Source: Owenia fusiformis
Lineage: Eukaryota > Annelida > Polychaeta > Sabellida > Oweniidae
Assembly (NCBI GenBank): GCA_903813345.2
Contig: CAIIXF020000004.1
Location: 17,655,513-17,719,512, forward strand
Reading direction: 5' to 3'
Length of the DNA stretch: 64,000 nt
Positions 2,350 through 63,119 of the stretch are shown piece by piece. A program made the translations under genes and the position numbers. A model generated the notes under the pieces. That model did not search any database and was not told where the DNA came from. It saw only the letters and a list, made by a program, of their open reading frames with translations. Each line of letters begins with the position of its first letter. Positions within the stretch are counted from its first letter, which is position 1.

Positions 2350-2440
2350 AACAAGGACTAGTCTGAACTAGTCTGTCTATTACCAAACAATGAAACAAGG
2401 AACTAGTCTGTCTTTCATCAAACAATGAAACTAGGATATC
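2341..2440. repeat. Tandem copies of the DHHC-A stop-codon region in its 3' UTR
   Basis: The last codons and following bases (AAACAATAAAACAAGG) recur about 44 and 77 bases downstream as AAACAATGAAACAAGG and AAACAATGAAACTAGG, separated by ACTAGTCTG motifs. The repeats read TGA where copy A now has TAA; copies B and C also end AAACAATGA, so TGA looks ancestral. Confidence 0.7.
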
Positions 2441-5225: not shown

Positions 5226-5595
5226 AATATTTTTAAAATTCACATTGTATATGGTGCATTCTGAGCATTTCAAACGATAATTTGTTATGTTCTTCAACAA
5301 ATTTTACTAAATTGCTTTTTCCTCTTTTATAGGGCTGGGTACTGACCTTCATGTAATACATACAAGTTTTATAATTGATACCTCCTGAGCTGAATTATTA
5401 ATGTAATACACGTGGCTCTGTATTTGGAACATTGTGAAAATACCATATTCTTGCCATCTCATTAATTATGTATTATGTGTTATACCACATTCTTAGTCAT
5501 ATTATATGGCAGCTCATGTATTGCATTTGATAATGATACTGCATTGTACCTTATTATTACAGCTCATACTCTATTATTTAAATATTCCAGGCAAA

Positions 5596-9055: not shown

Positions 9056-9708
9056 GAGCATTCATATCTAGTCTCTAACATTGTAAAAGTTTGTAACTTT
9101 TTGTATATTTAGTTTGTATCATAGAATGTACATTTTGTAGCAATTAGGTGTTTTCAGTCTGAATGTATATATCAACACTACATTGGAATCATGATGTAAT
9201 GATTTTTCTATTTTGCTTATGACTGTATATTTGTATATAAAACAAATGTAAATAACTGTATAGTGACCCATGTGTCGGAGAGACTGACATATATAAGAGT
9301 CAATAAAAGAATATATAGCTGCATGGTATAAGGTGTATTTCATACTTGGGTGAGTTTGGGGTAGATAAACACTTGGGAATAAATATCATATCTGAGGACT
9401 AGGCAGTAGGTATTAATTGTATATGTCCCTGCGGTCCTCCAGGGAGATATAAATTATCCTATATGAGGTTCAGGATATTGGGATTATCCTGAGGCTAATA
9501 TAATATATCTGCCCACTCAGCCAGGGTGTAAACCTGTATCCTGTCCGCTGATGAAAATACAACTCACAAACTATTCTTTATATACTGCAAACATGTCCAA
9601 GTATAGGATAAAATGGATAAATCCCCCACAATAAACCCTTTATTCAAAACCTCCTGGTACCCTTATTTATAAGTAAGCATGGCATATTTCCTATATATTC
9701 CAGGTAAA

Positions 9709-12309: not shown

Positions 12310-12743
12310 TATCATTGTTTATGTATTTTTCATTTCTATTAGTTATATGGTTATCTAAAAAACAACTCAAACACCATGTCTGTCTTATAAAGTATATATG
12401 TTATCTCAGTCAAAATTATAAAATAAAACATACAGTTTTGTGTATTATCAAGAATAATATAATGTTTGTTAGTTTCTTGACAGATGCTGTACATGTGTAG
12501 CAAATAAAATTCTCTGGAAACCTTGAATGACAAATACATCATATATATATATAGGTTATAATCAATTCAGGGCACCATGATAACTATGCCATAGTTGTCA
12601 AAAAATAAGCATGTGACATTTTTCCTGTGACAATATGCAATCTTTCAGGGATGAGACCTAGTCAAGTGTTTTTCTTGAATGCTGGCTAACATTCCCAGTG
12701 ACCATAAATATATTTTTCCTTATCAAATGAATAGTGTACTTAC

Positions 12744-34717: not shown

Positions 34718-37169
34718 TTACAACTCTCTATATTTAGAGACATATTCCACATAGCTCTCAGCAAACTTGACCTTGTTCTCATCTAGCTTTCTCCTGATAT
34801 CAACCGCAGTCTCATCTAACCCTTTCATGGTATTCAGGGACATATTCTTTCTATCCTGCTCCCAGTTTGTGATCACAAAACAACCAAAAAATTCTCGCCA
34901 AAAGTTTCGATTCAGACCCCGAACATCACAGAGGTGTGTCAGATGAGTAAATTGGTCGTATGTGAGATAGCCATCCATTTCGTGCAACATCTGGAAGATA
35001 AGTCGGGAATCAGGTTGTGGAGAACTCAGTTCAGATTCAATTTGAGGGATTAAACTGTTTGGGATATTGTTTGTTTCCAGAATGGTCTCCATGGCAACTG
35101 TCTCTAGATGGTTGAATTCTCTCTGTTGTTGCTTTGGTTTTATCTGGGTTGCTGGCCTCATTTTCAAAGTGCTCTCTATGGGCTCTAATTGTTCTATTAA
35201 ATCTGACATATCCATGTTTGGGTTTGTATAAGAATCAACCTGGCCCTGAACTCTGGATTGACCTAGAATAGTGAGAACTCTAAGCTCCGCCTCTTTCCAC
35301 TTTGACATTATCTCATCAACACTCTCTAGTGACTTCACAGCATCACATAGCGATTTACAGGTCTCTAAGGCTAGACGCAATTTTTGAAGCTCTACTTTAC
35401 GAGCATCAAAATCATTAATAACAATCCCTCTTCGAGTTTTGACACTGTCCAAAATTTCAGTTTCCTTACTATGAATTTCACTCACAATAGAATCCACCCT
35501 TTGTTTTATGTCATCAGTTGCCATGACAACACTAGCATCAACTTTCTCAATTGTACGATTAATGTGTGATAATGCATCAATGTTATCTTTCAGCGCATTG
35601 TCGATGCTAGCGATTTTCTTGTCAATGTTTCTGAGTGTCATCTTGTGGGCTGTTGCGATTGGTTGAAAGTTGTGGTTGAGTTTTCGACAGTAAAGCGTCT
35701 CACATGTTGCACAAACAGACCTGGAAGTAGATTAAACAAATATTATTTAATGAGAGGAATGAAATATTGGTGTTACTTCAATATGATATTAACCATAGGC
35801 TTTCAATTATCAAGTTGAAAGCCCTGCATGTATTAACTAATAATGTAATTAGTGACTAGTAATGTAATCAAGGACTTAAGCTTGAATGACCATTGAATTT
35901 GTTTAAGTTACAGCGTAAAAAAGCTTCTTAACACAGAATTTTTGAGGGGATACACAGTAGGCCTTTTGTCAAAAGTCTAACAAAGCAATTTAACACTGCT
36001 GTACAATACATTTTTACCATTATCTATGATAACAACTTTCTGGGAACATTTATCACTAGTAATCATTAACCTAAACGTCACATCAATGAGAATGTCCACA
36101 TGTTGTTTTTGAGTATTTTATTTTCTAGCTGTTATCTTAATTATCTCAGTGATTAAATGTTTATAATGAAAATATTGGAGTTCAATTGGATCTCATCAAA
36201 TAAATAGAACATGATCATCAAATAATAGTCTAGGGTGAAAACTGTACATTTATTTATCATATCCTTCTGCACCTGTTTAAAAAGCATAATTATAAATCCT
36301 TTATGGGAAATATACCCATGATTCTTACACATTTCTTATATTTTTTTGAATAAGTCATATTTTAAGACTCAACGGCAAGATAATTTTCTCATTTTTATAT
36401 CCATAATAAACAAATCAAAATACAAACAAATGTTGAACATAGAATTGATCACTCTATCTTTATGTCAAAAAATGATTTTATTATAATTAATTGTTATTGA
36501 TAACTGATTACATTTTACAAAGTTTTACACTTAAACACCAATGCAATACTGATATCAATAACGGTCTAAAGATAAAATATAATTATGTCAACCAACTGTT
36601 TCTTTGTTATAAATACTGATCATTTTGAAAGAACATAAATATTGCCCCAATATTTTAATGTATATATCTTAACAAAATTATTTTTAATTTCCATGATACT
36701 TCAATACATTAGTCGAGCCTAAATGCAGGACTTCAATCAAGTTGTTATAATTAACTTAATTGATAACTTAATTAATGGTTACAAGCAACAAACAATCAAA
36801 CAACATTAAAACAAATTGTTTTTACCTTGTGCATTCCTCACAGAAATCTACAAGTAACACCCCGGGATGTATTCCGCATTCCTGTTTTCTCATTCTCTCA
36901 CCAGAAACACCTTTCTTGGAGGAACTAGATGAGCTATCTGGTAACTGGCTCATGATATAAAAGTTCGTCTGGAGGTTCTTGATATCTTCTGAGCATAGAT
37001 TATGTGCTTTTCGACATACAGGGCAATTCACTTTGCTCCCTCTGCTTGTTAGGTTCTGGATACACTCTATGCAGAAAGAATGGTGACATGGCAAGAGTTT
37101 AGGTTGCCTGCCAGGAGTGTACTCTTCAAAACATACTTGACAGGTGAATATGTCCTCAGCATCACACAT
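34718..37169 (-). CDS. TRIM/RBCC-type RING E3 ligase-like protein
   Basis: Two coding exons, 36826-37169 and 34718-35720, joined GT/AG in phase, give 448 aa. RING C3HC4: C10, C13, C28, H30, C33, C36, C49, C52. A serine run (79-84) follows. The B-box is formed across the junction: C98, H101, C110, C113, then C118, C121 and histidines at 131 and 140, spaced more widely than usual. A long charged helical stretch follows, likely the coiled coil (about 142-260). The C-terminus (about 320-448, with FWREFFGCFVITNWE) matches no B30.2/SPRY or NHL repeat that I recognise. Family members are ubiquitin ligases, often in innate immunity or cytoskeletal control; no substrate can be inferred. The ATG at 37169 follows an acceptor (TAATTTTCAG) by seven bases, so a non-coding leader exon is expected upstream. 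Confidence 0.88.
35721..36825 (-). other. Intron of the TRIM-like gene
   Basis: About 1.1 kb of AT-rich sequence with a GTAAAA donor at the 36825 side and a CTTCCAG acceptor at the 35721 side. No repeat or gene seen. Confidence 0.7.
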
Positions 37170-37204
37170 GGTGAACTGAAAATTAGAAAACATGTACCAA
37201 GTGA

Positions 37205-37450
37205 GGTGGAAAAATATTGAAGTAGAGGTGGGCAGATTTGGATGAGAAAATATAGGTTAAGGAGGGCAGATTTGGAAGGAAAATATAAATTAAGGAGGGC
37301 AGAGTTAGTTGGAAAAATATAAGTTAAGGAGAAATTGGAAAAATATTGAAGTTGAGAAGGACAGATTTGGAAGGAATATTTGAGTTAAGGAGGGCAGATT
37401 TGGAGGGAAATGGTGAGTTAAGGAGGGCAGAGATGGATGTAAGGTTCAGG
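37205..37450. repeat. ~35-45 bp tandem repeat upstream of the TRIM coding start
   Basis: About six degenerate units with TTAAGGAGGGCAGATTTGGA and AAAATAT. It lies in the presumed leader intron of the TRIM-like gene. Confidence 0.7.
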
Positions 37451-44474: not shown

Positions 44475-45199
44475 TGTATGACATAAACCTTTCCTGTAAA
44501 TATCAACAGCTGAGATTATTATGGTGAATTCACCAAAAACTCAAAGATCTCAGAACATGTTGGGTCACTTATTAGATTGCAACTTACTAGCAATTTTGCA
44601 AGATTACTTTTTGGGGGAGTTTTTTGTGAGGCAATGCTCGTGAACATTAAACTTAAAAAATGAATTAATTTTAAACAGTTTTTGTACAATACAAAATCAT
44701 AAGTTTAAAACCTGATGGGTGCATTATATGGAACCCATCAGATATCTATAACCCATAATAAAAAAACAAAACAATATGGCCATATTGGCTAAAACATAAC
44801 ATTAAATTAAATTCCAAAAATCATAAAGAAGACATAATGAGGGATCACTTAGATCTCTTTATCAATGATAAAATATCAAAACTATTTTGTTAAAATATGA
44901 CCCCACCCTGGGGATATCAACTTTGAGAAGTATTTTGTTAGAGACTATGTAATCCTATGTAGCCCTTTCTCCACTTGAATACCCTTTGAACACAATTGTA
45001 AATCCAGCCATTTTGCAAATGAATTTTCCTAAATATGGCTCATCCTAGTCATTATCATGTTAAAGATAATTAAGTACTTTGAACATTAGTTTCATTTGTT
45101 AGTTGTTATGTATTCCATTTCCATGTTGTTTTAAGATGAAGCCATCAGCATCAAACCTTTCGGAGGGCTTTTATGTAGGCATATACAGGATAGTAGATC

Positions 45200-48100
45200 T
45201 TAAGGATGTGCTACACGATGCACGTACTCTGGTGGGTGAAGGTTTCTCTCACTATGTTTAGATCTGTGCAACTCATTGCGGAAATATTCTATTGTCTTAT
45301 TTATACCCAACAGCATATCTACCTGAAAATATAATAAGGTTAAAGACATCAGGCACATAAAAGTTATTCCATCGATGTACATGTAGTTATTTACACTAAA
45401 CTCAAGAGTTGGAAATGTAGATAGATCATCACGAACATGTATTTCCCTTTTTAAATATTCTGGACCTAGATAAAAGTCCATTTTAAAATTGAAAACTTTC
45501 CTGCAATCTGAACAATTTCACTGGACTTCACAAATGAGTTAAACAGTACAGTGCTCGAAAATTACGAGCCATTACGGGCTTTGTTACGGGCATCATGCAG
45601 GTAAGTACAAGGCTAGAGAATTACGAGCTATTACGGGTCTCATTACAGGCGCCGTACAAGCAAGTATGGGGATCGAAAATTATAATTTATTACGGGGCTC
45701 GTTACAGGCACCGTATGGACAAGAACGTGGATTGAAAATTACGAGCTATTACGGGCCTTGTAATAACAAGCTATTACAAGGCTTGAAAATTATAAGCAAT
45801 TACGGGACTCGTAACGAGGCCTGTACAAGATTGTACAGGGCCTGTTGACTCAACGAGCCTCAGACCGGCTTGTACAGGATCCGATGTAATTTGCCTGTGT
45901 ATATACAGACCATAACTTTAGTGTCAATATGATGCATGATAACACTACAAGAGAAATACTGTATAAGTGGTATAAATCCAAGTGGTTTATTTGCCCAATG
46001 TTCAAATTTGATCATTTTCCTTATTTTAATTTTCTTAATGACAAGAAACAACCCATTGGATAACATTATGAAGACAATATTTCGGACATATAATTTTCTG
46101 AACCTGGCAAAATTTGTAAAAACAAGTTCTCTACTGCTCTGCTCTATTGTTAAACTACTCCTAATAAAATGAGTTACCTTTGGTTGCCAGTTTATGTATT
46201 TCTTTGCCCTGGATATGTCTGGCTTCCTTTTCTGTGGGTCATCAGTCATAGCAGGCTTGTTAACAATCTCACTATCACTCCCTGAAACATTAATAAACAT
46301 TACAGGCTCAAAAGCTTAAACTGTAAGTCATGTAGGGAGCGGGACTTAAGTAGGCTGGTTCTCTATCTTACTATCACTTCCTAAAACAATGGAGAAATTG
46401 AGAATGGTACAGGGAAAATCTGGGATGAAGGAAACTGATCCTTGTATATAACCATACGGGTAATATAATAGTTGCATGGATGCAATCAATCAATTTTAAT
46501 GAATAATGTTTCATACACAAAGAAAACTTGATTTCAAAGCTTAATATCAAGACAATAATTGGAACACTAATATTTCTTATTCATATCTTGTAAATGCTCA
46601 AACTGGTATATCACATAAATTGATATCACAATTACTGTTAAAAAAAACTTCAGAAAATAAAAATCATATTTTCAAAGTATGTTTTCAAATTACAGTAAAA
46701 CTTGTAAACAAATACAGAAGACTTTTGAAAGTCATGGTTTCCAATTTGGAAGATGAACACCTCCCATAAGGAACACTTTTTGGAGTTCTATAGGTGTTCT
46801 GCTTCTACAGGTTTATTAGATTGTCATAAACAGAAAATTTAGTCCATTAAAAGACATAGTGAAAGCTGTCAAAATAGAAACAAAAGGAGAAAGTTTGATC
46901 ATACTACTTGTAAGGCATAATATTACAACATGTAACCACCAGATTTACAACATGTCACTACCAGATTTACAACATGTCACCAACTGATTTACAACATGTC
47001 ACCAACTGATTTACAACATGTCACCAACTGATTTACAACATGTCACCACCTGATTTACAACATGTCACCACCTGATTTACAACATGTCACCAACTGATTT
47101 ACAACATGTCACCAACTGATTTACAACATGTCACCACCTGATTTACAACATGTCACCACCTGATTTACAACATGTCACCACCTGATTTACAACATGTCAC
47201 CACCTGATTTACAACATGTCACCAACTGATTTACAACATGTCACCAACTGATTTACAACATGTTACCACCAGATTTAAATTACAAAAGCATGATTTTACA
47301 ACTGGCACCAATAGCGATGCGGGTCACAAGAAATGGTAGTTCCAACAATATGTCAAAATTTCTTGTTGAAGCATGATATGGCATAAATGTCATCCTATGA
47401 AAAAAGCTCATTAGATTAGGTTTTTATTAGAATATGATTGTTGCAATGGAATATGTTATTTAACCATGGCATGATGATTCAGTGGTCAAGCCTTATATGG
47501 TATTCTAATACTTCAATCCTAAAATGTTGAATATTTCAGGCTCAAAATACTTAAGACTTGGTATATGTTATAAAAGGGGAATCAATGTCTTGAATGAGTT
47601 ACAGGTCAACATCTGATTTGCATGTTATGCAAAGAGGTATTATGCAGGATTGTTTATTAAATCGTAAAATAGTGAAAAGTACAGGATTTGGATTGTTATT
47701 TGGCAGGGGAAGTATGTTTACTTACTCTTGCCTGCACTGTCTGCAATATCATAATGTATAGTAATATGAAATGTCAATAGGGGCTTCTATGTAATATCAC
47801 TGGTATCCACTTGGTTATGAAGACGTTATGTCGTTATGGGAAATACTGAGAAATCTTATCATACTTGGAATGTTGTGCAATTTTAACATATCATGGATCG
47901 AATCTCGAACTATATGTGGTAAAATTTCCATATAATTTCATAAAGAATCGAATTATTTTCTTGAAGTAAAATCAATGCGACTGGGTACCATCGCTCGCTA
48001 AAATTTGGGCAATTAAATTAAAAAGGATGTAATTGCTAAAAAGGGCCCTTGCGACATCACAGGCTTGCAACATGCTTGCAATAGCTTGATGAATGACCCC

Positions 48101-51100
48101 TCAGGGCGTTAATGGGACAAAACGCAAAGCAACCAAGATGTTATGAAATTCACCAGATAACGTCCTGGTTCCTGAAGTGAGGAATTCTCACTCAATTAAT
48201 GGAGATGGTTGATATATTATCTCATGATTGACCAGATTTTCAGTAACATGATGTTACTATTAACACACGGTAAAATATTTGGATACGAATCGACCTCCTT
48301 CTTGGTGAAAATGATGAAAATTAAAATTTCCTCCAAAGGAAGGTCATCCATTTTGTTAAAAAGATGTAACGTCTCTATAACCAGGTGGCACCAGTGAATA
48401 TAATTGAGGGGAGGAAACATAATTAGGATGACATACATGTATCTTCAATTATATGACATGTTCTTACAAAATTCAAAATTTCAGAAAAGTATTTAAAATA
48501 TGGGATGGGGGAAAGTGAGAAGAGGAATAACCCAGAATTCCTAGATGGACCAATCTCCATCTCAAGAGATTTATCAATATGTACATGGAAATCCATCAAT
48601 GAATTCTGGGGTCTTTCCCCTCTTGGGAAAAGTTTGGCCTTCTGATGAGACAGATTCTGATGGGGAACATGGCACATATTTATTTCCAGTAACACAAGTC
48701 ATGTGAGTCGAATGAAGACCCATTCTGTTTAGTGCCTACTTTAACACCACAGGAACAATAACATTCAATAAAGAAACATAAATGAAGTATACTTACTTTC
48801 TAAATATTAATAATTTGAGCAATAACTAATACACTGTAATATAGTCTTACACTCACCTATTAATTTTTTAATAATTTGAGCAAATTCTATGATGGTGTGC
48901 TCATCTGGGTTTCCAATGTTAACAGGCAAGCTGAAGTTACCATTCATTAAAGCTACTAGGCCATCTACTAAGTCACTGACATACTGGAAGGATCTTGTCT
49001 GTTTCCCTTCTCCATATATCTACAGAGACAGAATAAAAATATACAGAATACAATATATACAAAAGAGAGTTAACAAAAGGATAAGAATTGTATAACACAG
49101 TACAGTTTTACCTTTTTTCCTCTTATCTGAGAGTTTCACTGTTAAGTATTTTTTCTCTTGGAGAGCTGAGTTTGAGTTATCTGGGTATGAATTTAAGTGA
49201 GTTGAGTTTCACTCGGGTTAAACATAAACTTGGTGGTATTTTGCATGGAGTTGAACTGAAGTTGAGATGACCCGTTACTGACATCCCGAACAAGTACATC
49301 TATTTATTTAAGCTTCTGCAGAGGTAAAAGGATGCAACAGGAGATGTAGTGGATACAAGAATCACTGTGATTGGTTCACTCATATTAGAATCACTGTGAT
49401 TGGTTCATTTTGTAAGCAATTGCAAAGGGAGATGAAGTGAATATTAGACTCACTGTGATTGGTTCATTTTGTAAGCAATAGACTAGATGCGAGTAGAAAA
49501 AATCTTGATTTACGCCATTAAATATTCAAAATTCAGTAAAAACGATGTTATATTTGAAATCTACATGTAAAAGTACATCTAGAAATATGGTTTCGAAAAT
49601 TGTTTATCAAGTTTGAAAATTTAATTATCTTTGAAAGTGTGACTTCTAGTTCGGGTTGATTCTCCATAGAGCCCATGTTACAAAATCACAAAAAGTGAAA
49701 TATCTTTTCTTGTATCGGTCAGATAGCATTTTCATTTACTGGACATATTTTTATTTGCATAACTATCAGATACATAAGGGTTATGTGAAAATTGAACCAC
49801 TAAAACAGATGTTATTTAAGTTAAAGGGAACTTTCTACTATACCAGCCATGTTATCTGACCCGAACGAGCCACCTGGTGGTGAAACTGGTAACTACCTAC
49901 TCGCATCTGCGTTATTGCAAAGGGAGATGAAGTGAATATTAGACTCACTGTGATTGGTTCATTTTGTAAGCACTTGCAAAGGGAGATGAAGTGAATATTA
50001 GACTCACTGTGATTGGTTCATTTTGTAAGCATTGTAATATGAAGTTGCTGACCACCCTGCCATCATTCATATGCATTCTAGGACCAAATGTGTTGAAGAT
50101 TCTGGCAACTCTCACCTCTACACCTTCCTGAAACAAGTAGACAGAGTTCAATAAACCCATTTTATATCTCAAAAACAATATACTCTGTCGTAAATATTGG
50201 AGGAGTCACAATTTGCACCACCTAAGCAATGACACTGTATTTGGTCTTTCACTAGTTGTTCAAAGAGAGATTTACTAAGTTGTTAACTCACTTGCTTCTG
50301 ATAAGCGTAACACATTGTTTCAGCAACTCTTTTCCCTTCATCATAGCATGCCCTGGGCCCTATAGGGTTAACATGGCCCCAGTATTCCTCATGCTGGGGA
50401 TGAATCTCCGGGTCTGTAAGAAAAATATAACAATGGTAAAAAAAGTGGAAACGGCAAAAAAGTGGAACACCTTGCAAGTGGAACACATTTAAGCGTTCCA
50501 CTAAGAAATCTTTTTTACTGATCATGCCATATAAGGCTCACATTTAAGGTTGGATTAATCCATGTATTAAATAAATGTATATGTTTTAGTATTATTTTGA
50601 ATAAAAATCAATTTTCAATATGATTAAAGCATAAAATATATTCAATATCATGTAAAAGTAAACAAAAAAGACCAATAAGAATAAGAGGTACCATGTACCA
50701 AGATGTTCTCTTTGAGCATTGAATTGTGGGTAATTATTAAAGAACACATTCCAATAATAACATAATTTGTGGGAGAATGTTCACTTTCTGTATTTTCATA
50801 ATTATGATAAATTCCATTTTTTATTAAATTATCAACATGTTTGTTGATAATCATGTTTTTATTTTTGAGTTATTTCTTTAAATCATCCATAAAAAGTACA
50901 AAATAAGATTTTCTTGGAATGTGTACATTCTCCAATTTTGAAAACCCAAAGGCAATGCTTATGTATGAAATATGGGAAGTTGCCTACGGGTGTCTACAAA
51001 ACAAAGACCTAAGACCTAAGACCTACAAAACTAAGACCCCCCACGTTATAAAACTAAGACCCTGTTATAAAACTAAGACCCCCCATGTAATAAAACTAAG

Positions 51101-54100
51101 ACCCTGTTATAAAACTAAGACCCCCCACGTTATAAAACTAAGACCCTGTTATAAAACTAAGACCCCCCACGTTATAAAACTAAGACCCTGTTATAAAACT
51201 AAGACCCCCCACGTTATAAAACTAAGACCCTGTTATAAAACTAAGACCCCCCACGTTATAAAACTAAGACCCTGTTATAAAACTAAGACCCCCCACGTTA
51301 TAAAACTAAGACCCTGTTATAAAACTAAGACCCCCCACGTTATAAAACTAAGACCCTGTTATAAAACTAAGACCCCCCACGTTATAAAACTAAGACCCCC
51401 CATGTAATAAAACTAAGACCCTGTTATAAAACTAAGACCCCCCACGTTATAAAACTAAGACCCTGTTATAAAACTAAGACCCCCCACGTTATAAAACTAA
51501 GACCCTGTTATAAAACTAAGACCCCCCACGTTATAAAACTAAGACCCTGTTATAAAACTAAGACCCTCCACGTTATAAAACTAAGACCCTGTTATAAAAC
51601 TAAGACCCCCCACGTTATAAAACTAAGACCCTGTTATAAAACTAAGACCCCCCACGTAATAAAACTAAGACCCTGTTATAAAACTAAGACCCCCCACGTT
51701 ATAAAACTAAGACCCTGTTATAAAACTAAGACCCCCCACGTTATAAAACTAAGACCCTGTTATAAAACTAAGACCCCCCACATTATAAAACTAAGACCCT
51801 GTTATAAAACTAAGACCCCCCACGTTATAAAACTAAGACCCTGTTATAAAACTAAGACCCCCCACGTTATAAAACTAAGACTCTGTTATAAGAATCAGTC
51901 ACCGTGCCTTGCTCTGCTCGCCACAAGGTAGTCTTGCCTCTTGGCCTTGTGTTCCCTAGTAACATACAGATTCTACAAAAGATAGTCTTGCTTCTGGTCC
52001 TTGTGTTCCCTTCTAATATACAGATTCTCCCCACTAACATAAAGATTCTACAAAAGGTAGTCTTGCTTCTGGTCCTTGTGTTCCCTTCTAATATACAGAT
52101 TCTCCCCACTAACTTAAAGATTCTACAAAAGGTAGTCTTGCTTCTGGTCCTTGTGTTCCCTTCTAATATACAGATTCTCCCCACTAACATTAAGATTCTA
52201 CACATGGTAGTCTTGCCTCTGGCCCTTGTTTACCCTAGTAACATACACATATGGTAGTCTTGCCACTGACCCTTGTTTTCCCTAGTAACATGGTGGTTCA
52301 AGATTTCAGACCCATCTTTCTCACATAGATTGCTGAACTTATTTTAGTTGAGAATTCCTAATAGAATTAAGAATTAATAATAGCTGAAACTGTTCTGTTT
52401 GTCCTAGCAAACAATATCCCAATATGCATTTGAAATTCATTTTTGTCTATATGTGTTGACAGTCTGTGATGTCATCATCAATCATCACAATGGGAATTAG
52501 GTGAATTCTATCTGTGACAGTGAGATTATCTATGATGTCACATAGTAGTTTGATTTCTAAGAAATGTGGCAGAGTTCTATCTATGACAGAGCTGCTTTGT
52601 GATGTCATCATGAATTATCTCGTTTCCATTGTGATGATTGATGATGTCATCAGAGTACTTTGTGATGTCATCGTGAATTACCTCATTTCTATTGTGATGA
52701 TTGATGATGACATCACAGACTGTCAACAAATAGACAGAAGAAGTTGAACTACAAGTTGGAAAATTGTTTGCTAGGGCAAAACAACTCAGTTTCAGCTAAT
52801 AATTCTTAATTCTATTAGGAATTCTTAACTAACAATGGTTCAGCAATCTGTGCCAGAATGATGGGTCTCAAATCTTGAACTACCATTAAACATCACTTCC
52901 AAAACAATACCAGCATAAAATGGAGTAGGGGAAGTCGTCCTATCATCGCACGGGTACTCAGGGAAACTACTGACGATTTCAAATATGATAACTTCAACTT
53001 ACTTTGAGAATATGAGACGAAAGATCAACCTTTCCTCTAAAATCTAAGTAGTGTTTGACATTTCTCAATCTCGGAACGCTAACACTTTAAGACCCCTTAG
53101 ACTCGCATGTGCGGTGGTCCTAATTATCGCACAGTCGTCCTAATTATCGCACAGTTATGTTTCAGATGTTATTTCACGATACTGTATACATTTCTCTGTT
53201 TAAAACAGATACATACATATGCTGTAATCATTTTTCTATCAGTTTTAGTGTAAAATATCAACAAAATATACATTATACACATACTTTTCTGTCTTTATTT
53301 GGAGGGGGTCAAAATTTGTCAGACGAATTTTACTTCTTGCGCAAAAGCATTTATGACAATGGCGGAAGTAAACAATTCTTAAAAAATGAAGAGATATTTC
53401 TAAATATATGAATAAATCATGAAGATTGGGAGTAATGGTGTTGAACTGTTTTTCGTAACACTGGTTTAAAAGATCTATTTAGCTATTTAGGACAATCGTG
53501 CGATAATTAGGACCGTGCGATAATTAGGACCACTTCCCCTGTCTCTTTTTATGCTCAGCATAAAATGGGACATCACTTTTTATGCTCAGCATAAAATGGG
53601 ACATCACTTTTTATGCCAGCATAAAATGGGATATCACTTTTTATGCCGGCATAAAATGGGACATCACTTTTTATGCCGGGCACAAAAAGTGATATCAAAA
53701 AATTACTTTTTTTAAAAATCAACAAATCCGGGTATTTATTACAGTCCATTTTTATATAATCCGCTGTTGTATGTTACTGGGGAACACAAGGCCCAGAGGC
53801 AAGACTACCTTGTGGCGAGCAGAGCAAGGCACGGTGACTGATTCTTATAGCAGGGTCTTAGTTTTATAACGTGGGAGGTCTTAGTTTTATAACAGGGTCT
53901 TAGTTTTATAACGTGGGGGGTCTTAGTTTTATAACAGGGTCTTAGTTTTATAACGTGGGGGGTCTTAGTTTTATAACATGGTCTTAGTTTTATAACGTGG
54001 GGAGTCTTAGTTTTATAACAGGGTCTTAGTTTTATAACGTGGGGGGTCTTAGTTTTATAACAGGGTCTTAGTTTTATAACGTGGGGGGTCTTAGTTTTAT

Positions 54101-57100
54101 AACAGGGTCTTAGTTTTATTACATGGGGGGTCTTAGTTTTATAACGTGGGGGGTCTTAGTTTTATAACAGGGTCTTAGTTTTATTATGTGGGGGGTCTTA
54201 GTTTTATAACAGGGTCTTAGTTTTATTACGTGGGGGGTCTTAGTTTTATAACAGGGTCTTAGTTTTATAACGTGGGGGGTCTTAGTTTTATAACAGGGTC
54301 TTAGTTTTATAACGTGGGGGGTCTTAGTTTTATAACAGGGTCTTAGTTTTATAACGTGGGGGGTCTTAGTTTTATAACAGGGTCTTAGTTTTATAACGTG
54401 GGGGGTCTTAGTTTTATAACGTGGGGGGTCTTAGTTTTATAACGTGGGGGGTCTTAGTTTTATAACAGGGTCTTAGTTTTATAACGTGGGGGGTCTTAGT
54501 TTTATAACAGGGTCTTAGTTTTATTACATGGGGGGTCTTAGTTTTATAACAGGGTCTTAGTTTTATAACGTGGGGGGTCTTAGTTTTATAACAGGGTCTT
54601 AGTTTTATAACGTGGGGGGTCTTAGTTTTATAACAGGGTCTTAGTTTTATTACGTGGGGGGTCTTAGTTTTATAACAGGGTCTTAGTTTTATAACGTGGG
54701 GGGTCTTAGTTTTATAACAGGGTCTTAGTTTTATAACGTGGGGGGGTCTTAGTTTTATAACAGGGTCTTAGTTTTATAACGTGGGGGGTCTTAGTTTTAT
54801 AACAGGGTCTTAGTTTTATAACGTGGGGGGTCTTAGTTTTATAACAGGGTCTTAGTTTTATAACGTGGGGGGTCTTAGTTTTATAACAGGGTCTTAGTTT
54901 TATAACGTGGGGGGTCTTAGTTTTATAACAGGGTCTTAGTTTTATTACATGGGGGGTCTTAGTTTTATAACAGGGTCTTAGTTTTATAACGTGGGGGGTC
55001 TTAGTTTTGTAGGTCTTAGGTCTTAGGTCTTTGTTTTGTAGACACCCAGTTGCCTACCCTTCTAGTTGAAAGCCCATGATTAATCTGAGTACATCCAAAA
55101 GTATTAAATCCTACATGTAAATATTTCAACAAATCAATCATCTACATAAGGCCTGCCTAAAGGTGGTAGCAAAGAATAGAGATGAGTGTAAAATGTAAGA
55201 AGCAAACATTATAAAAAGTTCAAAAGTTTAAAATGTTGAAAATGTTTTGAATGAAACGTTACCCTAAACTTGTCTCTGCACTTTTAATATGACTGCGATA
55301 AGCCTTGAGTCAAGTTAAATAACGGCCAATAAACCAAGAATCAGTAATATTGGTTTAAGTATTGAAAATCAACAATACAAGTTTGACCCCAAAAGGTTAA
55401 AAAACTTTTTTTATTGCCTTTTGTCTTATAGAGGACTTATTATACAGATGGATAAAAAGATGACATTAGTATTTTGGTTGGGGCAGTATACCATATTTTT
55501 ATATGGAGAAAACTGACAAAAGGATTGAAAAACAACAATACACTGTTTGTCCTGAAAGGTCTAAAAACAGATCAATTGCCTTTTGTCTACTAGAGGTCTT
55601 GTAATAATATGAATACACAAATGGCAGTAGTAATTTGGTTGGGCCAGTATACAATACCTTTATATGGAGAAACTGCCAAAAGTAGCTTCACTTTAATGCT
55701 ATTTCAAATGTATATAGCAAAGCCTCTATTATGTGAATATTGCTTGTAACTGACCTCCATAGACTTCTGATGTACTGGCTAAAAGCACCCTGGCCCTAAC
55801 ACGCCTGGCTAATCCCAACATGTTGATTGTTCCTATAGAGTTGGTCTTAATTGTCTTAATAGGGTTATACATGTAGAATGGCGGGGAGGCTGGGGATGCT
55901 AGATGGTAGATCTGGTCAACTGAAACAGAATAAATAGTCATTTCATTGACAAGACAGCGGAATATGTCCCACCACAGAGGATGCAATACATGGAAATGTA
56001 ATGAGGAATCAGATTAAATACTAGTGTGTTATATTATGTGGCTTCACATTTAGGGAGAGCTCTACTCAATCGGTAATTGAAGGAGAAAATGATCAAGGTG
56101 ACGAGGCATGTAATAAAATGAATATTGTTCAGAAATAAGCAGAAAGATCGTGGCTAAAATGTGGTGTTTTGTAAAGTGGGCACTAGCCTAGCCTGGGTCA
56201 ATCACAATTGCAATCCTGAAAGATGGCAAAATTACAGGTTTACAGAGAAACATCATCTTACCTTCTATAAATAAAGGATTAACTATATCATGATGTAAGA
56301 GCTCAAAGTTCTCATGGCCAATCCAGTGCTCAACATTGCGTTTCCTCCCAGTGAAGAAATTATCAACAACAGTCACTTCATGGCCCTGTAGCATGAGTTT
56401 GTCAACTAAATGAGATCCTACAAACCCTGCACCTCCAGTTACCTGAAAACAGAGTAAAAAATATTGAAATCATCAAAAACAGTCACTTCATGGCCCTCTA
56501 GCATGAGTTTGTCAACTAAATGAGACCCTACAAACCCTGCACCTCCAGTTACCTGAAAACAGAGTGAAAAATATTGAAATCATCAACAACAGTCACTTCA
56601 TGGCCCTATAGCATGAGTTTGTCAACTAAATGAGATCCTACAAACCCTGCACCTCCAGTTACCTGAAAACAGAGTGAAAAATATTGAAATCATCAACAAC
56701 AGTCACTTCATGGCCCTCTAGCATGAGTTTGTCAACTAAATGAGATCCTACAAACCCTGCACCTCCAGTTACCTGAAAACAGAGTGAAAAATATTGAAAT
56801 CATCCACAAAAGTGTCTTCATGGCCCTCTAGCATGAGTTTGTCAACTAAATAAAAGGCAATAACATGTACAATTTCACCACCTACCATTTGTTACATATA
56901 CCAACTGCCCAATGCTGAACACCAACTGTGGAACAACATCAAAAAAAAGCTAGAGACAATAACGATATGTCACCACTTCTGCACTTCTGGTGGTGACATA
57001 ATATTGATTGTTCAAAAAATTTGACTATTAAAAACATGTCTGACTGTCAAAACAAATTTGACTGTTAAAACATATTGCAACAATATATCTTACTGCAAAG

Positions 57101-60100
57101 TACACTTACCAAAATTCTTTTTCTATCTTTATAGTTGAGGAAATCCACTTCTGGATATGTCTTCTTACTACAAACAGCAAAAAAACACAATTAAGTGTAC
57201 ATTTTATCTGCCTGCCTCTTTGACAGAGGGACCATGTTATAAAACAAAACCGAAGGGTAGTACAGTATACAATTGTTGACCTCTCCAGAGGTCAACCGGC
57301 AAAATTGTATACCGAGGCTGTAAACCAAGGTTTACAGTTGAGGTATAAAATTAGTAAATTAATTTTAATTTTACGTTTCTATTTGTATTTTTGTTATACT
57401 TGTCGTCTAGTAAAGTCAAAATATTACTTTCATCAATGTTTACAAAACGTCCGTCTACCATGTTTTTTCTGTAAACATTATGACATCATTTATTTTTCAA
57501 AAGTAGCGGTCAACAGTACCTAGTAGTGGTCAACAGTATACAAATAGTGACTGCCATTGAGGGCAATAGTGTAAATTATTTCCCCGAGGGAATATCCTCT
57601 ACAATGTACTATTCCCGAAGCCGCAGGCTGAGGGAATAGTACATTGTAGAGGATATTCCCAAGGGGAAATCATTTACACTATTGCTCGAAATTAGGCAGT
57701 CACTATTTGTTTTATTATATACCCTATACTGACTCTTTTCCCGTTTCCTCTGCGAAGGCCAAAAAGTCTTAGAAAGCCCCCTCCCCGGGTCCATTGTTAG
57801 CATTATAAGCTGTGACGTCATCAGATGCTCAACAGAAATTTTTGCCTCTGAGACTCTCACTTGACAAATTCAATCGCGTTTAACACGCAGAATAAATTAC
57901 CATAACACTTGAAATTACACAGACGTATTGAGCTTATGGAACTTTATACACGTTGCTTATATTGTATCGTTCATGCACGTCTGTCATGGTGAACGGAGTT
58001 GATTTGTGTTTGTGCTCATCCTCCATTTTTCTGTTTTTCGTCTACGCAGTGATGATGCGCAGACGTTTCCAAGGGTAATAGAACTTGCAATTGTGACGTC
58101 AGCGGGCAATAGTTCAAATGTATATTCCCGCTGACGTCACATTTGAGGGAATATAACTTTCCGAGGGAAATAGTAAATCTATTTCGGAACACGTGACTAG
58201 GTATTGACCAATCAGGATTAGTGTTACATATTGGGTATATAATAATACATATTGTTGACCGCTAATCAACCAATCAGAATCGAGTATTTCAGTTGAGGTA
58301 CTAACAATATACAATTGCTGACCTCTCCAGAGGTCAACCGGCAAAATTGTATACCGAGACTGTAAACCGAGAAACTACTGTTGACAGAGACCGAAGGTCA
58401 AGTCAACAGTAGTTTCAAGGTTTCAAGTTTCAAGGACTGTAAACCGAGAAACTACTGTTGACAGAGACCGAAGGTCGAGGTCAACAGTAGTTTCAAGGTT
58501 TACAGCCGAGGTATATGGTTTTGACCGTTGACCGAATGGAGAGGTCTACAATTGTTTTGTTAGTCAGAAGAAACTAATAATACACATATAGATGACAGTC
58601 ATCAATCATGGCTTCATTTCACAATCTTCTCCGAACCACGCCAGCAATGATTTTTTAAGAAAATCTGAAGACAGTGGTAGCTAAACTCTCTGTTTTCGGC
58701 ACATCACTGCGTACTCACTAGTAAATTAATGTTAATTATACGTTTCTATTTGTATTTTTGCTATACTTGTCTAGCAAAGTCAAAATATCACTTTCATCAA
58801 CGTTTACGAAATGTCCATCTCCCATGTTTTTTTCTGTAAACATTATGACGTCATATTCCCCATAATTCACAAGTGTAGTACAGTAACATACGCGGTCAAT
58901 AATATGATATCCCATGATGCACAGGTGTGGTACAGGCAAAAATGTTGACTGCTAATTGACCAATCAGATGTGAGTGTTTACATTGAGGTACTAACAATAT
59001 ACAATTGTTGACCTCTCCAGAGGTCAACCGGCAAAATTGTATATCGAGACTGTAAACCGAGAAACTACTGTTGACTGAGACCGAAGGTCGAGGTCAACAG
59101 TAGTTTCAAGCTGTAGTCGAGGTATATGATTTTGACGGTTGACCGCATGGAGAGGTCTACAATTGTTTTGTTAGTCCGAAGAAACTAATAATACACATAT
59201 AGACGACAATCATCAATCGGCATGGCTTCATTTCACCATGGACTTCTAGCTTATTTGAAGTCCATGGTTTCACAATCTTTTCTCCGAACCACGCCAGCAA
59301 TGTGTACTCATTAGTAAATTAATGTTAATCTTACGTTTCTATTTGTATTTTTGCTATACTTGTCGTCTAGTAAAGTCAAAATATCACATTCATCAAACTT
59401 CAGTCTGCCATGTTTTTCTTTAAACATTGTGACGTCATATTCCCATAATTCACAAGTGTAGTACAGTAACAAATGCGGTCAACAATATGATATCCCATGA
59501 TGCACAGGTGGGGTACAGGCAAAAATGTTGACCGCTAATTGACCAATCAGATGCGAGTATTCACACTGAGGTACTAACAATACATATTATCATTTTTTAT
59601 TATTCAATTACGAGTATACTTTATCAATATGTTTGGTATAACATTTTCATTTTTGCTACTGTTGAGCAATCAAAATTACCGAATATTGATTTGTTTTTCA
59701 TACATTGCCCAAAGGCTTAACCATGCAGCTGATGAAACAAAAAGCCATTTCATTATAGAGATTGTAAGCAGACAGTGTTAATTAAACTTGTTTAACAATC
59801 AATTAACAACTCCATTTATATTAATATAAATGAGGTGTTGAAAAGGTCATACTATGACATGTAGATCTATACAATGTACATGTGTTGTATTTGTATTGTA
59901 TTGTATTGTATTGTATTGTATTGTATTGTGTTGTATCGTATTGTATTGTACTGCATTGTATTGTATTGTATTGTACATGTATGATTGTATATTATTTCAC
60001 CTAGCATCTTAAAATATGAAAATTCTATCTTATACTCAGACTTTAAGAGACAACAGACCATTACAGCAACAATTTCAAACATCATCAAATGTCAAGCTTA

Positions 60101-61468
60101 ATTTAAAAATAGCTTGTTCATTTTAAAGAAAACCATACATCTCATATTATAAAAATCAACGTAACATATACAGTGTATAGGCTATAGTGGTTATGAACCC
60201 CAGGAGGGAGTATTAAGTGCCACATAATGGTACACTTTTTAAAAATATGTATCATATACTGATTTTAGGTTACTTTTTTTATGCACATTTTCTGATTTTA
60301 ATTTCAAGTTTCAACAAGAAGTCAATTTCAAAATAGCAATAAAAGTGTAAACATTGAATTTATAATGTGAATAAAAAGTGACAGAAGGTTTTTGTTTTTG
60401 ATTTTTGTAATATTCCAATAATATCGTAACATCGTTCTTGTTAAATTATTTGTATTTGTTTTAATTAATGTTCTGATTGTTAATTGTTAAGCCCAGGCTG
60501 CATGATTGGTGGGCAATTTTAAGCATGGATGATACTAGACATGAGTGCATTAAATACCCAAATTCATTGAGTCAAGTGCTTAAATTATTTTCACACAATG
60601 CAAAAATTTGAATCTAAAAATAACCATTCTTAGATGAAAAATATAGAATGCATATTATATCATAGACTGTGCTCTGATTGGTTGAAATATGATATATCAT
60701 GCCTAGATGTTTATTTTTAACACAATAGTGGATGTATTCTTACCCATCTTCAAGTATCTGTATTCTCTTATGCAACTGTTTCAGTTCATTCTGTAGTATA
60801 TTGTCATTGTTCACGGAATACTGCATCCTGGATACACAAATGAAAAATTGAATATTTTAACTATATGTTTCCTTATATGGTTAATATTGTCATTGTTCAT
60901 GTCATATTGCATCCTGGGATACACAAATGAAAAATTGAATATTTTAACTATTTGTTTCCTTATATGGTTAATATTGTCATTGTTCATGTCATATTGCATC
61001 CTGGGATACACAAATGAAAAATCAACTGTTGAACTATATGTTTCATAATATTGTTAATATAGTCATTGTTCATGTCATACTGCTTCGTGGGATACACAAA
61101 TATTTCCAAATATGGTCATTTTATTTACATAATTGCAAGTACATGTATATATAAGCAGAACACTGATAATAAGGTAATGGAAGTTCTCATGGATCACGTT
61201 GTGCATGTTAAAATTGAATCAATTTTTCTTCTTTTAAATTTCATGATATATAATATACAAAAACAAAATGCAATAACACTTACCGTGTATCTAGAGAGTT
61301 TGACAGGCGACTGTAACCCACTAAAAAATACAAAACATAACAAAATGTCAGTACAGCCGCCATAATCCCCAATGTTAGAACTTTATGGCAGATATTCAAC
61401 TTCGTACAGTTTTTCAGTTTTAGTATTGTATGTTTGATCTTCCGTGTGACAGTCCTAGTGATATGCAT
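45200..61468 (-). CDS. UXS1: UXS1, UDP-glucuronate decarboxylase (complete, 10 exons)
   Basis: Coding exons in transcript order: 61284-61468, 60744-60827, 57110-57167, 56262-56442, 55755-55919, 50292-50413, 50008-50127, 48857-49019, 46178-46281, 45200-45322. All junctions are GT/AG with consistent phases; 434 aa. A cytosolic tail and a membrane anchor (about 30-51) give a type II Golgi topology, followed by a short helical stem. The NAD-binding motif [11 protein letters not shown] is at 111-121, LASPASPP at 176-183, STSEVYG at 218-224, and the catalytic pair Tyr248/Lys252 in [25 protein letters not shown] and [10 protein letters not shown] are typical of UXS1. The enzyme converts UDP-glucuronate to UDP-xylose, the donor that starts heparan and chondroitin sulfate chains. 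The reading frame is intact. Unusually, exons 2, 4, 7, 8 and 9 each have one edge tandemly copied into the adjoining intron. Confidence 0.97.
45540..45860. repeat. ~50-60 bp tandem repeat in UXS1 intron 9
   Basis: Six or so degenerate units with GAAAATTACGAGCTATTACG, CTCGTTACAGGC-CCGTA and CAAG. Bounded by exon 10 below and ordinary intron above. Confidence 0.75.
46250..46400. repeat. Copy of the UXS1 exon 9 acceptor edge in intron 8
   Basis: The exon 9 start with its acceptor (plus-strand AGCAGGCTTGTT through ACTATCACTCCCTGAAACA) recurs 99 bases further into the intron as AGTAGGCTGGTT through ACTATCACTTCCTAAAACA. The copy keeps an AG acceptor. Use of it would add 99 in-frame bases but meets a stop codon after about ten codons. 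Confidence 0.75.
46693..46815. repeat. Decayed pogo-like MITE in UXS1 intron 8
   Basis: CAGTAAAACTTGT at left and ACAGGTTTATTA at right with AGATGAACACCTCCCATAAG and GGTGTTCTGCTTCT inside, related to the 34164-34317 element. Confidence 0.6.
46930..47275. repeat. 22 bp minisatellite, about 16 units
   Basis: Unit ACAACATGTCACCAACTGAT plus TT, alternating between CAACTG and CACCTG variants in runs. Very homogeneous, so recently expanded. It lies in UXS1 intron 8. Confidence 0.9.
47290..48785. other. Remainder of UXS1 intron 8
   Basis: About 1.5 kb with no repeat, transposon or coding signal I can support. Confidence 0.6.
48791..48885. repeat. Degenerate copy of the UXS1 exon 8 donor edge in intron 8
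   Basis: The plus-strand TTAATAATTTGAGCAA at exon 8's 3' end (48868) recurs 61 bases into the intron (48807). A donor sits at the matching distance in both: GTGAGT in the real junction and GTAAGT in the copy. The sequence between is more diverged. Confidence 0.6.
49363..50060. repeat. 59 bp tandem array copying the UXS1 exon 7 donor edge
   Basis: Each unit contains the last ~24 bases of exon 7 (minus strand ...CAAAATGAACCAATCACA), the donor GTGAGT and about 35 bases of intron. The real junction is at 50007/50008; further units start 59 bases apart, with a 436 bp insertion splitting the second copy. Two copies keep GTGAGT (at about 49948 and 49453); the most distal ones read GTGATT. Period 59 is not a multiple of three. 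Confidence 0.9.
49480..49915. mobile_element. 436 bp insertion inside the exon 7 donor array
   Basis: The intact neighbouring units show GCAATTGCAAAGG, whereas this unit is split after GCAAT(A) and resumes ATTGCAAAGG. The insert ends are inverted AGATGCGAGTAG and CTACTCGCATCT. The empty-site comparison gives a 2-3 bp target duplication, so probably a small DNA transposon. Confidence 0.75.
50440..50520. repeat. Fragment of the AAGTGGAACAC element family
   Basis: GTGGAACACCTTGCAAGTGG and CGTTCCACTAAG match the interior of the pogo-like MITE at 34164-34317. No clean ends. Confidence 0.5.
51950..52265. repeat. ~75 bp direct repeats in the foldback centre
   Basis: About four units with GGTAGTCTTGC, CTTGTGTTCCC and AACATACAGATTCT-type motifs, the central two nearly identical. 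Confidence 0.7.
52296..52890. repeat. Inner inverted repeat of the foldback centre
   Basis: About 200-base arms at 52296-52500 and 52680-52890 are inverted relatives, sharing TAATAGAATTAAGAATTA, GACAGTCTGTGATGTCATCA and GAACCAC/TTGAACTACC motifs. Between them TTTGTGATGTCATC-TGAATTA units repeat directly. Confidence 0.65.
52928..53539. mobile_element. 612 bp nested element with GGGGAAGT ends
   Basis: GGGGAAGTCGTCCTATCATC at left and an inverted relative ending GGACCACTTCCCC at right. The motif TCCTAATTATCGCACAG is repeated near both sub-ends. No target-site duplication recognised and no protein. Confidence 0.65.
53545..53690. repeat. ~35 bp tandem repeat (TTTTTATGC..GCATAAAATGGGA)
   Basis: Four and a half units, each itself palindromic around TTTTATGC-GCATAAAA, just inside the right arm of the foldback element. 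Confidence 0.8.
55430..55690. repeat. Two-copy ~165 bp direct repeat in UXS1 intron 5
   Basis: Blocks with TTTGGTTGGG-CAGTATAC, TTTATATGGAGAAA and GCCTTTTGTCT occur twice in direct orientation between the foldback element and exon 5. Confidence 0.65.
56357..56851. repeat. 110 bp tandem array copying the UXS1 exon 4 acceptor edge
   Basis: Exactly 110 bases separate successive units (plus-strand TGGCCCT at 56381, 56491, 56601, 56711, 56821). The first is within real exon 4. Each full unit contains the first ~75 bases of exon 4, encoding the NAD-binding [11 protein letters not shown], and the acceptor TTTTCAG, then ~35 bases of intron-like sequence. Three extra acceptors are intact; the fifth unit is truncated before its acceptor. 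Copies are nearly identical, so the expansion is recent. Confidence 0.93.
57240..59585. repeat. Composite hairpin repeats in UXS1 intron 2
   Basis: Three copies of a module with ACAATTGTTGACCTCTCCAG, GGTCAACCGGCAAAATTGTA and an inverted pair GAAACTACTGTTGAC / GTCAACAGTAGTTTC lie near 57266, 58310 and 58996. A ~680 bp segment containing GTTTTGTTAGTC-GAAGAAAC, TATTTGTATTTTTGCTATAC and GACCAATCAGATG is tandemly duplicated (about 58310-58990 and 58996-59585). A hairpin with ~75-base arms occupies 57546-57708, and a smaller one (GTGACGTCAGCGGG arms) 58092-58130. Confidence 0.7.
59885..59985. repeat. (GTATT)n microsatellite
   Basis: About eighteen units of the pentamer GTATT with a few substitutions, in UXS1 intron 2. 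The rest of this intron up to exon 2 at 60744 shows no other feature. Confidence 0.9.
60795..61105. repeat. 86-87 bp tandem array copying the UXS1 exon 2 acceptor edge
   Basis: Four units at spacing 86, 87 and 86 bases. The first includes real exon 2 (60744-60827). The repeated part covers about 30 exon bases, the acceptor (TATCCAG) and ~50 bases of intron 1. Units 2 and 3 keep a TATCCCAG acceptor; unit 4 has lost the AG. Confidence 0.9.
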
Positions 61469-61609
61469 CCTACGTAATGGAACAAATGTTCATCATTTGA
61501 ACTTATTGAATGTTCATCATTTATTGATTTTAACCGTTAACTAGAAAGGCTGGATTCAGGAAATGTCTCTATTTATGATATTGGAGCTTCATTATGGCAA
61601 CTAGTTAAT

Positions 61610-61870
61610 TCAGTCCTAAGTCAACTTTGACCCCAGCAACTCAGATCCAAATCAAGATGGGATCCTATTCAACTCAGATGCTAGTCAACTCAGACTTTAG
61701 TTAACTGAAGCCCTAGTCAACTCTATACTGTTCAACCAATGTATTCCTTCAGTCATTGTAATACCTTGTTGGATCTCAAACTCTAGTCAAAATACCCAAT
61801 CCAAATCACCCCAGACCCTTGTCAACTCACACCCTTGTCAACTCAGACCTTTGTCAACTCAAGTCCTCGA
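61610..61870. repeat. Degenerate ~17 bp repeat (CTTGTCAACTCAGAC type)
   Basis: About ten scattered units with GTCAACTCAGACC-T, upstream of UXS1. Some motifs recur inverted near 62060 (TTAACGAAGATCTGAGTTGACTAG region). Confidence 0.65.
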
Positions 61871-63119
61871 TAAAAGTGATTTTATGATGTATGGACTGAA
61901 ACATTGATTTAATTTGTCAAATAAGTTATTTGTAAGTCTTTGAGCATTTGGTTAGATGTCTATATAATGGTAGGATGAAGAATCTAAATGATTCAAAGAT
62001 TGTTTCAACAACAACAAATATAAATGATTTTAATGAGTTAACCAAAATAATTCAAGTTAACGAAGATCTGAGTTGACTAGAATCCTCCATGACAAACATT
62101 GTGGCAAATAAATATACATTAATTGATTGAAGTCACTGTGACAATGTCACAATGGTAAGCAGGGTGCAACATAGAGCCAAAGCAAGTCACTGATCTATTT
62201 GGGCCTCAGCATCATTGAGCATCTATCAAATATGAGAGGTCGGAACTCCTTTTGATGTACCTTGATACTAAGTTACAATCAAGTAAACTTAACAGACTAT
62301 ATGTATTTCATTTTCTCATAATCATTTACTCAGTGCAATCAGTATGAGGCTAGCAGATTGGCAGAAGTCTACTCTAGATAATCCTTTCCGATTTGATCTC
62401 CAAGCACAAATGAAAATCGAGTGAAACCCTGTCAAGTGACACAAGCACACGAGCATCGGCAAACTGGACATATATATGTGATACTATATGTGATATGGCT
62501 AAACATGCTAAAAAGTCCAAGGGGTCTTGATTGTGGTTTCCTATTGCAACAACCCCCTTTAAACTGTTGACTCCAAGAGTCCCCCCTCCCTTCATCACCA
62601 CATATCCTGATTTGAGAGAATATATTTCATATCCTGTATCCGCCAAATTGAACCCATCCTTGTATGAAATATACCCTATTCATAATATGACCTCCCCAAA
62701 ATCCATAAGTTTATAATGCCAGATATTTCTGGTGTTCTGAAATAGATCATACTTTGGAAATACATCAAGTATTCCTTTTAATTCCCCTCTAAGGCTTTCA
62801 TTTGGAGAGAATACACAACGAACGGCCATTTATTCCTTTGTATTTTATACCAGGGTGTGACAAGAGCAGCATGGTATAATAGAGTATTGATGCTTTAGAG
62901 ATAATATCTACTCATGTAGCAAATGGTTGTATTAGGCCAAGCCAATAACAACCAGTGTTTTTTATAAACATTGACAATTTTTGATATCATAGAATCATCA
63001 ATGAATATTTATAAGACTATAGTTGAGGGTCTCGTTTCAATAAAAACCTGATGAATCACATCCAATACATGTATACAACACACCAAGAGGATAACTAGAC
63101 AACAGCAACGCCAAAGCGT

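Follow-up and report, generated by a model that had tools for sequence, protein, structure and literature searches.

Short segments lying across the splice junctions of the UXS1 gene of Owenia fusiformis have been copied in tandem into the adjoining introns together with their splice sites, and the same structure recurs in unrelated genes of this genome, where arrays straddle splice junctions more often than simulated random births do. These arrays are most probably minisatellites of the type called mirages in amphioxus, born in the ordinary way, with a rate of duplication or retention roughly twofold higher for segments that contain exon than for intron.

The window is a stretch of 64,000 nucleotides, in which UXS1 occupies positions 45200-61468 of the minus strand. 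Its ten coding exons, delimited by the joined reading frame, the splice sites and a structure match, are located on that strand at 61284-61468 (exon 1), 60744-60827 (exon 2), 57110-57167 (exon 3), 56262-56442 (exon 4), 55755-55919 (exon 5), 50292-50413 (exon 6), 50008-50127 (exon 7), 48857-49019 (exon 8), 46178-46281 (exon 9) and 45200-45322 (exon 10). Joined, they give a frame of 434 amino acids, all nine introns are of the GT-AG type, and the best match of the protein is UDP-glucuronic acid decarboxylase 1 in structure 4gll (E 1.7e-176, residues 103-418), which we take to be the human enzyme. The repeated copies are intronic, and splicing the exons together yields the protein expected of UXS1, the intron positions being those of a single species. 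Intron 5 also harbors, at 50988-55047, an element of about 4 kb with long inverted arms and a 42-bp tandem array within each arm. The outermost 307 nt of the arms are 100% complementary and the remaining listed pairs 95-99%, and a possible flanking target duplication of 8-9 bp was seen by eye, so the element resembles a fold-back DNA transposon; if transcribed within UXS1, it could form a very long hairpin. Outside the gene, the window holds three tandem DHHC palmitoyltransferase paralogues on the plus strand (1144-2346, 5497-6699 and 9673-10818; single long frames of 382-401 aa), a pantothenate kinase-like stretch at 12743-13027 on the minus strand (Fumble, E 1.1e-14) and a RING-finger stretch at 36825-37256 on the minus strand (zf-RING_5, E 1.8e-10), perhaps of a TRIM-like protein. 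About 4 kb separate two tandem arrays, at 13406-13994 and 17850-19635, whose 89-90 bp units are alike and, as judged by eye, run in opposite directions.

Junction arrays of UXS1 are present at two acceptors (exons 2 and 4) and one donor (exon 7), all read on the minus strand. The exon 2 array repeats an 87-bp unit, composed of 30 bp of exon, the acceptor and the tail of the intron, in 3.5 copies over 60798-61101, while that of exon 4 repeats a 110-bp unit, 87 bp of which are exon, in 4.5 copies over 56356-56851. Both arrays agree with the initial annotation, which had read four units of 86-87 bp and five units of 110 bp, respectively. The donor array of exon 7 (49382-50031) has a 59-bp unit with 24 bp of exon and is interrupted by an insertion. 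It opens with two perfect units (49915-50031), which are followed, past the 441-bp insert, by about 1.6 units at 49382-49477 and by a further degenerate piece (85%) at 49333-49378, which bears out the roughly four units plus a partial described there earlier. The pattern had been extended to five exons by adding two units of 99 bp at the acceptor of exon 9 and two units of 61 bp at the donor of exon 8. For exon 9, a single decayed duplicate was found (46250-46388), in which 46349-46388 copies 46250-46289 at a spacing of 99 bp and with 80% identity over 40 bp; for exon 8 there is only a 16-bp match (48807-48883). When each of the 18 UXS1 splice junctions was scored against the adjoining intron and compared with 100 dinucleotide shuffles, the junctions of exons 2, 4, 7 and 9 reached 48, 114, 58 and 24, values attained by none of the 100 shuffles (the shuffle maximum for exon 9 was 12). 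The exon 9 duplicate is probably real but old. The donor of exon 8 scored 7, matched or beaten by 54 of 100 shuffles, and no duplicate is supported at this junction; it is one of the remaining 14 junctions, at each of which between 11 and 97 of the 100 shuffles attained the observed score. Four of the five proposed exons thus keep their junction copies, strongly so at exons 2, 4 and 7. It had also been pointed out that each array leaves the true exon intact at one end. This holds, but as a geometric necessity for every tandem array with a unit that crosses a single junction, rather than as a separate finding.

The description of UXS1 as a gene full of decoy splice sites is confirmed at the level of the sequence, where the copies score close or equal to the true sites. 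According to matrices trained on the sampled exons and those of UXS1, the copies keep splice sites of predicted working strength. The three decoy acceptors of exon 4 (56552, 56662 and 56772, minus strand), each in the back-to-back form CAG/GTAACT, score 8.6 as acceptors, against 9.1 for the true site, and 6.0 as donors. Of the exon 2 copies, two (60913 and 61000, minus strand) are intact acceptors and score 6.2 (true site 5.7), and the outermost copy has lost its AG. Among the exon 7 copies on the same strand, the decoy donors at 49948 and 49453 score 2.6, as does the true donor, and two weaker ones at 49394 and 49365 score -0.5. The back-to-back layout of acceptor and donor resembles recursive splice points, and the exon 4 copies could act as such. 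Ten alternative sites, nine of them array copies or pieces and the tenth a chance AG inside exon 2 (60820), were joined in silico, and each of the ten led to a premature stop. A role of the copies as functional decoys in the regulation of UXS1, for instance through unproductive splicing or through recursive splicing at the AG/GT of exon 4, would be in line with these stops and with decoy scores on a par with those of the true sites. However, unit lengths are not tuned to the frame (7 of 22 are divisible by three), such copies also occur in unrelated genes, one of the three exon 4 copies has an in-frame stop, and RT-PCR of amphioxus Adh3 and globin suggests, in the part of that report covering them, that mirages leave splicing undisturbed (PMC3087553). 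A regulatory role is therefore highly improbable, and the copies would more simply be silent.

With respect to their origin, DNA searches of the 498-Mb genome revealed no second locus for the units of exons 2, 4 and 7, although such a search skips very common words and an absent match is no proof of rarity. Being matched only at their own locus in these searches, the units look locally born and not like copies of a dispersed mobile element carrying a UXS1 exon edge. The sole dispersed part within the exon 7 array is the 441-bp insert at 49476-49916, a high-copy repeat for which the genome search gave 4399 first-look candidates; 40 further places were scored, 39 of them at 95-99% identity and one at 84%. 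By its size and its terminal inverted repeats, read by eye, it can be called MITE-like, and it was probably inserted after the array had formed, since matching units flank it on both sides.

Other genes were represented by a control sample of 42 regions (9 CCT, 15 myosin and 18 kinesin) located by Pfam exon matches, of which 53 of 60 were used for CCT, 70 of 92 for myosin and 73 of 144 for kinesin. The sample covers about 293 kb of the 498 Mb in one assembly and contains 394 anchored junctions. Exons were delimited by a small home-made gene finder anchored on the Pfam matches, with edges checked by eye at 22 junctions in or beside arrays and set by the gene finder alone elsewhere. Two edges were corrected (9294 to 9324 in region L004 and 7997 to 8093 in L009), exon 7805-7937 of L009 was removed from the counts as an array copy, and three "supported" exons were excluded as copies (L029 2563, L029 2749 and L031 1527). 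Arrays called by TRF straddle a junction in 12 of the 42 regions and at 17 of the 394 anchored junctions; the three of 18 in UXS1 represent a higher proportion, of borderline significance (Fisher P 0.05). The junction-crossing segments of the control genes are 28 to 260 bp long, one straddling unit having the full 260 bp, compared to 59 to 110 bp in UXS1. Examples are 20 units of 53 bp at a CCT donor, seven units of 83 to 89 bp at a CCT acceptor, and three junction arrays within a single kinesin gene. The kinesin region L047, which was fetched because of its array and stands outside all counts, holds 17.9 units of 159 bp with 97% matches (346-3189; C2:23266345-23269188). This array ends in the exon encoding the end of the motor domain, its copies lie upstream of the true exon, and 18 of 18 located acceptors keep their AG. 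Across ten scored arrays, every located splice site keeps its signal, although locating sites by similarity favors those that are kept; the exon 2 array of UXS1 offered too few located sites for this scoring. Coding constraint on the copies was considered and rejected, as differences from the true exon show no clear preference for third positions if the misaligned L023 case is left out, and the third-position bias of L047 stems from five shared sites. A different arrangement was seen at C9:37986009-37994334, starting in region L012, where one motor-domain exon of a myosin gene (Pfam positions about 25-81) recurs in roughly a dozen spaced copies, which may be alternative exons and not a tandem array.

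TRF called 47 arrays in the control sample, and 17 of them lie across a splice junction, while simulated births, placed at random in the real gene layouts and expanded, gave 6.8 ± 2.3 with a maximum of 12 in 150 runs. An analytic null based on the birth of a single unit leads to 6.4 expected arrays, or to 8.0 if the fractional copy is added to the unit, with gene-bootstrap intervals of the ratio of 1.80-3.73 and 1.42-2.84, respectively. If arrays are defined by BLAST, 18 of 54 straddle against 9.8 or 12.9 expected under the birth nulls, which corresponds to ratios of 1.84 (gene-bootstrap 1.27-2.41) or, with the most generous null, 1.40 (0.99-1.81). The excess is about twofold, and its size depends on the null and the array caller, ranging from 1.4 to 2.9 under birth nulls. 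A simulated twofold preference for junctions produced a mean of 10.4 straddling arrays and reached 17 in one of 150 runs. Before edge correction the count was 16 of 47 against 6.1, and several thresholds were tried in the analysis. The paralogue-supported exon set (560 junctions), in which one edge or more is doubtful (L023 3940) and which is secondary to the main count, gives 19 straddling arrays against 8.2 to 10.2 expected. If the two richest genes (L009 and L033) are left out, ratios of 1.8 to 2.5 are obtained with TRF arrays (P 0.007 to 0.06) and of 1.3 to 1.8 with BLAST arrays (P 0.05 to 0.26). Straddling and expected numbers are 8 and 3.1 for CCT, 7 and 3.5 for kinesin, and 2 and 1.5 for myosin, whereas UXS1 alone, with 3 against 0.7 to 1.3 (P 0.03 to 0.13), is weak. 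The excess is limited to straddling units and does not reflect a general pile-up near exons: 8 arrays are located 0-300 bp from an exon, with 12.7 to 13.4 expected. Among arrays that straddle or lie within 300 bp of an exon, 17 of 25 straddle (binomial P 0.0003 to 0.003), and within 100 bp this holds for 17 of 22 (P 0.006 to 0.03).

Pure chance would also put some arrays on junctions in a genome so rich in them, with no bias involved. Tandem arrays with units of at least 25 bp fill 22.6% of the UXS1 locus (44700-62500) and 8.5% of the 42 control regions. Local duplications cover 38% of intron points in UXS1, against 3 of 18 junctions, and 13.9% of intron points in the CCT and myosin sample, against 11 of 246 junctions. 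Placement of whole array footprints likewise yields no excess, with 17 of 55 BLAST arrays against 19.1 expected, 17 of 47 TRF arrays against 15.1, and 3 against 3.0 in UXS1. However, because all copies except the exon part of the terminal one lie in the intron, the event to be placed is one ancestral unit. In simulated random births the footprint null returns a ratio of 0.44 and the birth null 1.03 or 0.85; the former is therefore biased and hides an excess, while the latter is approximately calibrated. For this reason footprint shuffling was dropped as a null. Point coverage of junctions versus introns was dropped as a test as well, because a multi-copy intron array spans many points yet represents one event. 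The birth null was chosen post hoc, after the footprint result, which weakens its P values. The initial annotation had argued that random birth should not favor junctions, and had proposed a tandem-repeat scan against shuffled positions. In the 42 regions, that scan finds no excess when the biased footprints are shuffled, and does find one when the 17 arrays are set against the 6.8 of simulated births, so the argument stands for the sample and only weakly for UXS1 by itself. Given the calibrated comparison, we regard chance alone as rather unlikely.

As for the process, a short segment across one splice junction would be tandemly duplicated in place, with breakpoints that look random, and the duplicated units would then be multiplied and homogenised on the intron side through ordinary local duplication and unequal exchange. 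Because only one junction is crossed, the terminal unit would stay joined to the rest of the exon, and the coding sequence would therefore be left untouched, with the copies persisting as silent decoys in the intron. The likeliest cause of the excess would be that segments containing exon duplicate more readily, or that their arrays persist longer.

Signs of selection can be seen in what the sample lacks. Among the 47 arrays, 3.0 to 3.7 should be wholly exonic and none is (P 0.02 to 0.05); arrays over more than one anchored junction, of which 0.8 to 1.5 are expected, are likewise missing. Both absences agree with the prediction for selection. They fit the suggestion, made at the outset, that the pattern is partly a survivor effect, but such a filter creates no excess, since simulated births with wholly exonic and multi-junction cases removed give 6.8 straddling arrays and unfiltered ones 6.6. 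A somewhat doubtful alternative is that junction arrays arise no more frequently than others but persist for longer, with selection on the exon forbidding the deletions that would remove an array and keeping the exon copy from decay. The absence of wholly exonic and multi-junction arrays is what purifying selection predicts in this case too, and identity is a poor clock for arrays, because their copies homogenise, so it cannot cleanly tell birth from retention. On the other hand, straddling arrays do not appear older than the others (median identity 95% versus 89%, P 0.13), their copy number is similar (4.2 versus 4.7, P 0.85), and the excess does not shrink if the count is restricted to arrays with 90% identity or more and 2.5 copies or more (10 of 23, with 2.7 to 3.4 expected). 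Much less probable is a mechanism linked to splicing or transcription, such as R-loops or the reintegration of splicing intermediates, which had been proposed to target the boundaries. It finds its sole support in the junction excess itself, whereas the units hold unspliced intron joined to exon, the breakpoints are spread over the unit instead of coinciding with the splice site or the branch point, and neither side of the exon is preferred, with 9 acceptors and 8 donors in the sample. The exon share of the unit varies from 0.12 to 1, the value of 1 coming from the doubtful L023 edge, and is consistent with a uniform distribution (KS P 0.28, n = 22, with 19 units from the sample and three from UXS1). 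With donors matching acceptors and uniform-looking breakpoints, nothing points to the splicing machinery; a process bound to the splice site, the branch point or the spliced product should have left a different pattern. Errors of read joining in the assembly are the least credible source of the repeated units, as the copies differ by substitutions, a separate high-copy element sits inside the exon 7 array of UXS1, and the same pattern is seen in genes on several contigs. Exon GC was also tried as a cause of the excess and set aside, as 38 intron arrays have 35.0% GC against 33.3% in matched intron (P 0.21), a difference that leaves room for a composition effect.

Ordinary birth of mirage-type minisatellites, with a preference for segments that include exon, thus accounts best for the observations. 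In a stronger form, offered tentatively, the birth rate of tandem duplications could be two to four times higher for segments that include exon than for intron, making exon edges a mutational hot zone for minisatellites; mirages would then represent the visible and tolerated fringe of a larger number of exonic duplications that selection otherwise eliminates, and would keep supplying spare splice sites for the gain of introns and exons. Mirages have so far been reported gene by gene in amphioxus, as far as the published descriptions at hand extend, while here they are present at about 4% of the sampled conserved-gene junctions (17 of 394). Two questions thereby become testable: whether tandem duplication has its hot spots in exons, and how the spliceosome passes over a splice site that is repeated up to about twenty times beside the real one. 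Such arrays are also a trap for gene prediction and read mapping, and could feed new introns and alternative exons.

Amphioxus mirages were described as minisatellites that duplicate an exon-intron boundary (PMC3087553). In the sections of the two amphioxus reports that characterize them, they occur on both donor and acceptor sides, with units of 10-160 bp and the authentic exon at one end, and many copies keep their AG or GT, with 81-100% identity in BflGb6 (PMC3087553, PMC3902484); PGBD5 and troponin C also carry them (PMC3902484). Length polymorphism, somatic instability and RNA are reported there as well. The UXS1 arrays likewise cross one junction, are found on both sides and have the authentic exon in the terminal position. 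Their units of 59, 87 and 110 bp fall inside the amphioxus range and, for the three exons tested (2, 4 and 7), are local and not dispersed. They show every mirage feature that could be tested, and their kind is therefore already known. What is new is the presence of mirages in this genome, their frequency and their excess over random birth; no genome-scale count of them was found in the literature, among the matches listed. Compared to the amphioxus cases as described, several arrays can occur here in one gene, units reach 260 bp and copies 20, and frequency and excess have been measured over 394 junctions. The amphioxus genome also differs from the present one in GC and in contig sizes; the present genome has 34.6% GC in the sample and contigs C1-C12 of 32 to 62 Mb.

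Related structures have been presented in other organisms. Duplications of exon 4 in earthworm metallothionein concern one gene family, and the description consulted mentions no boundary-crossing arrays. In human segmental duplications, variable internal tandem repeats are located at exon-intron boundaries and alter splicing in some paralogues (PMC2812944). These are minisatellites at boundaries, as in UXS1, but as far as that account goes their units average 30 bp and they belong to recent paralogues with changed transcripts, whereas the arrays studied here reside in conserved genes and are known from DNA alone. A further related case is a form of intron gain in which tandem genomic duplication of AGGT-containing exon segments copies splice-site-like sequence (PMC3443670), as the duplications in UXS1 do. 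There, as outlined in the source, the duplication takes place inside an exon and gives rise to a new intron, while in UXS1 an existing junction is crossed and the copies come to lie in the intron.
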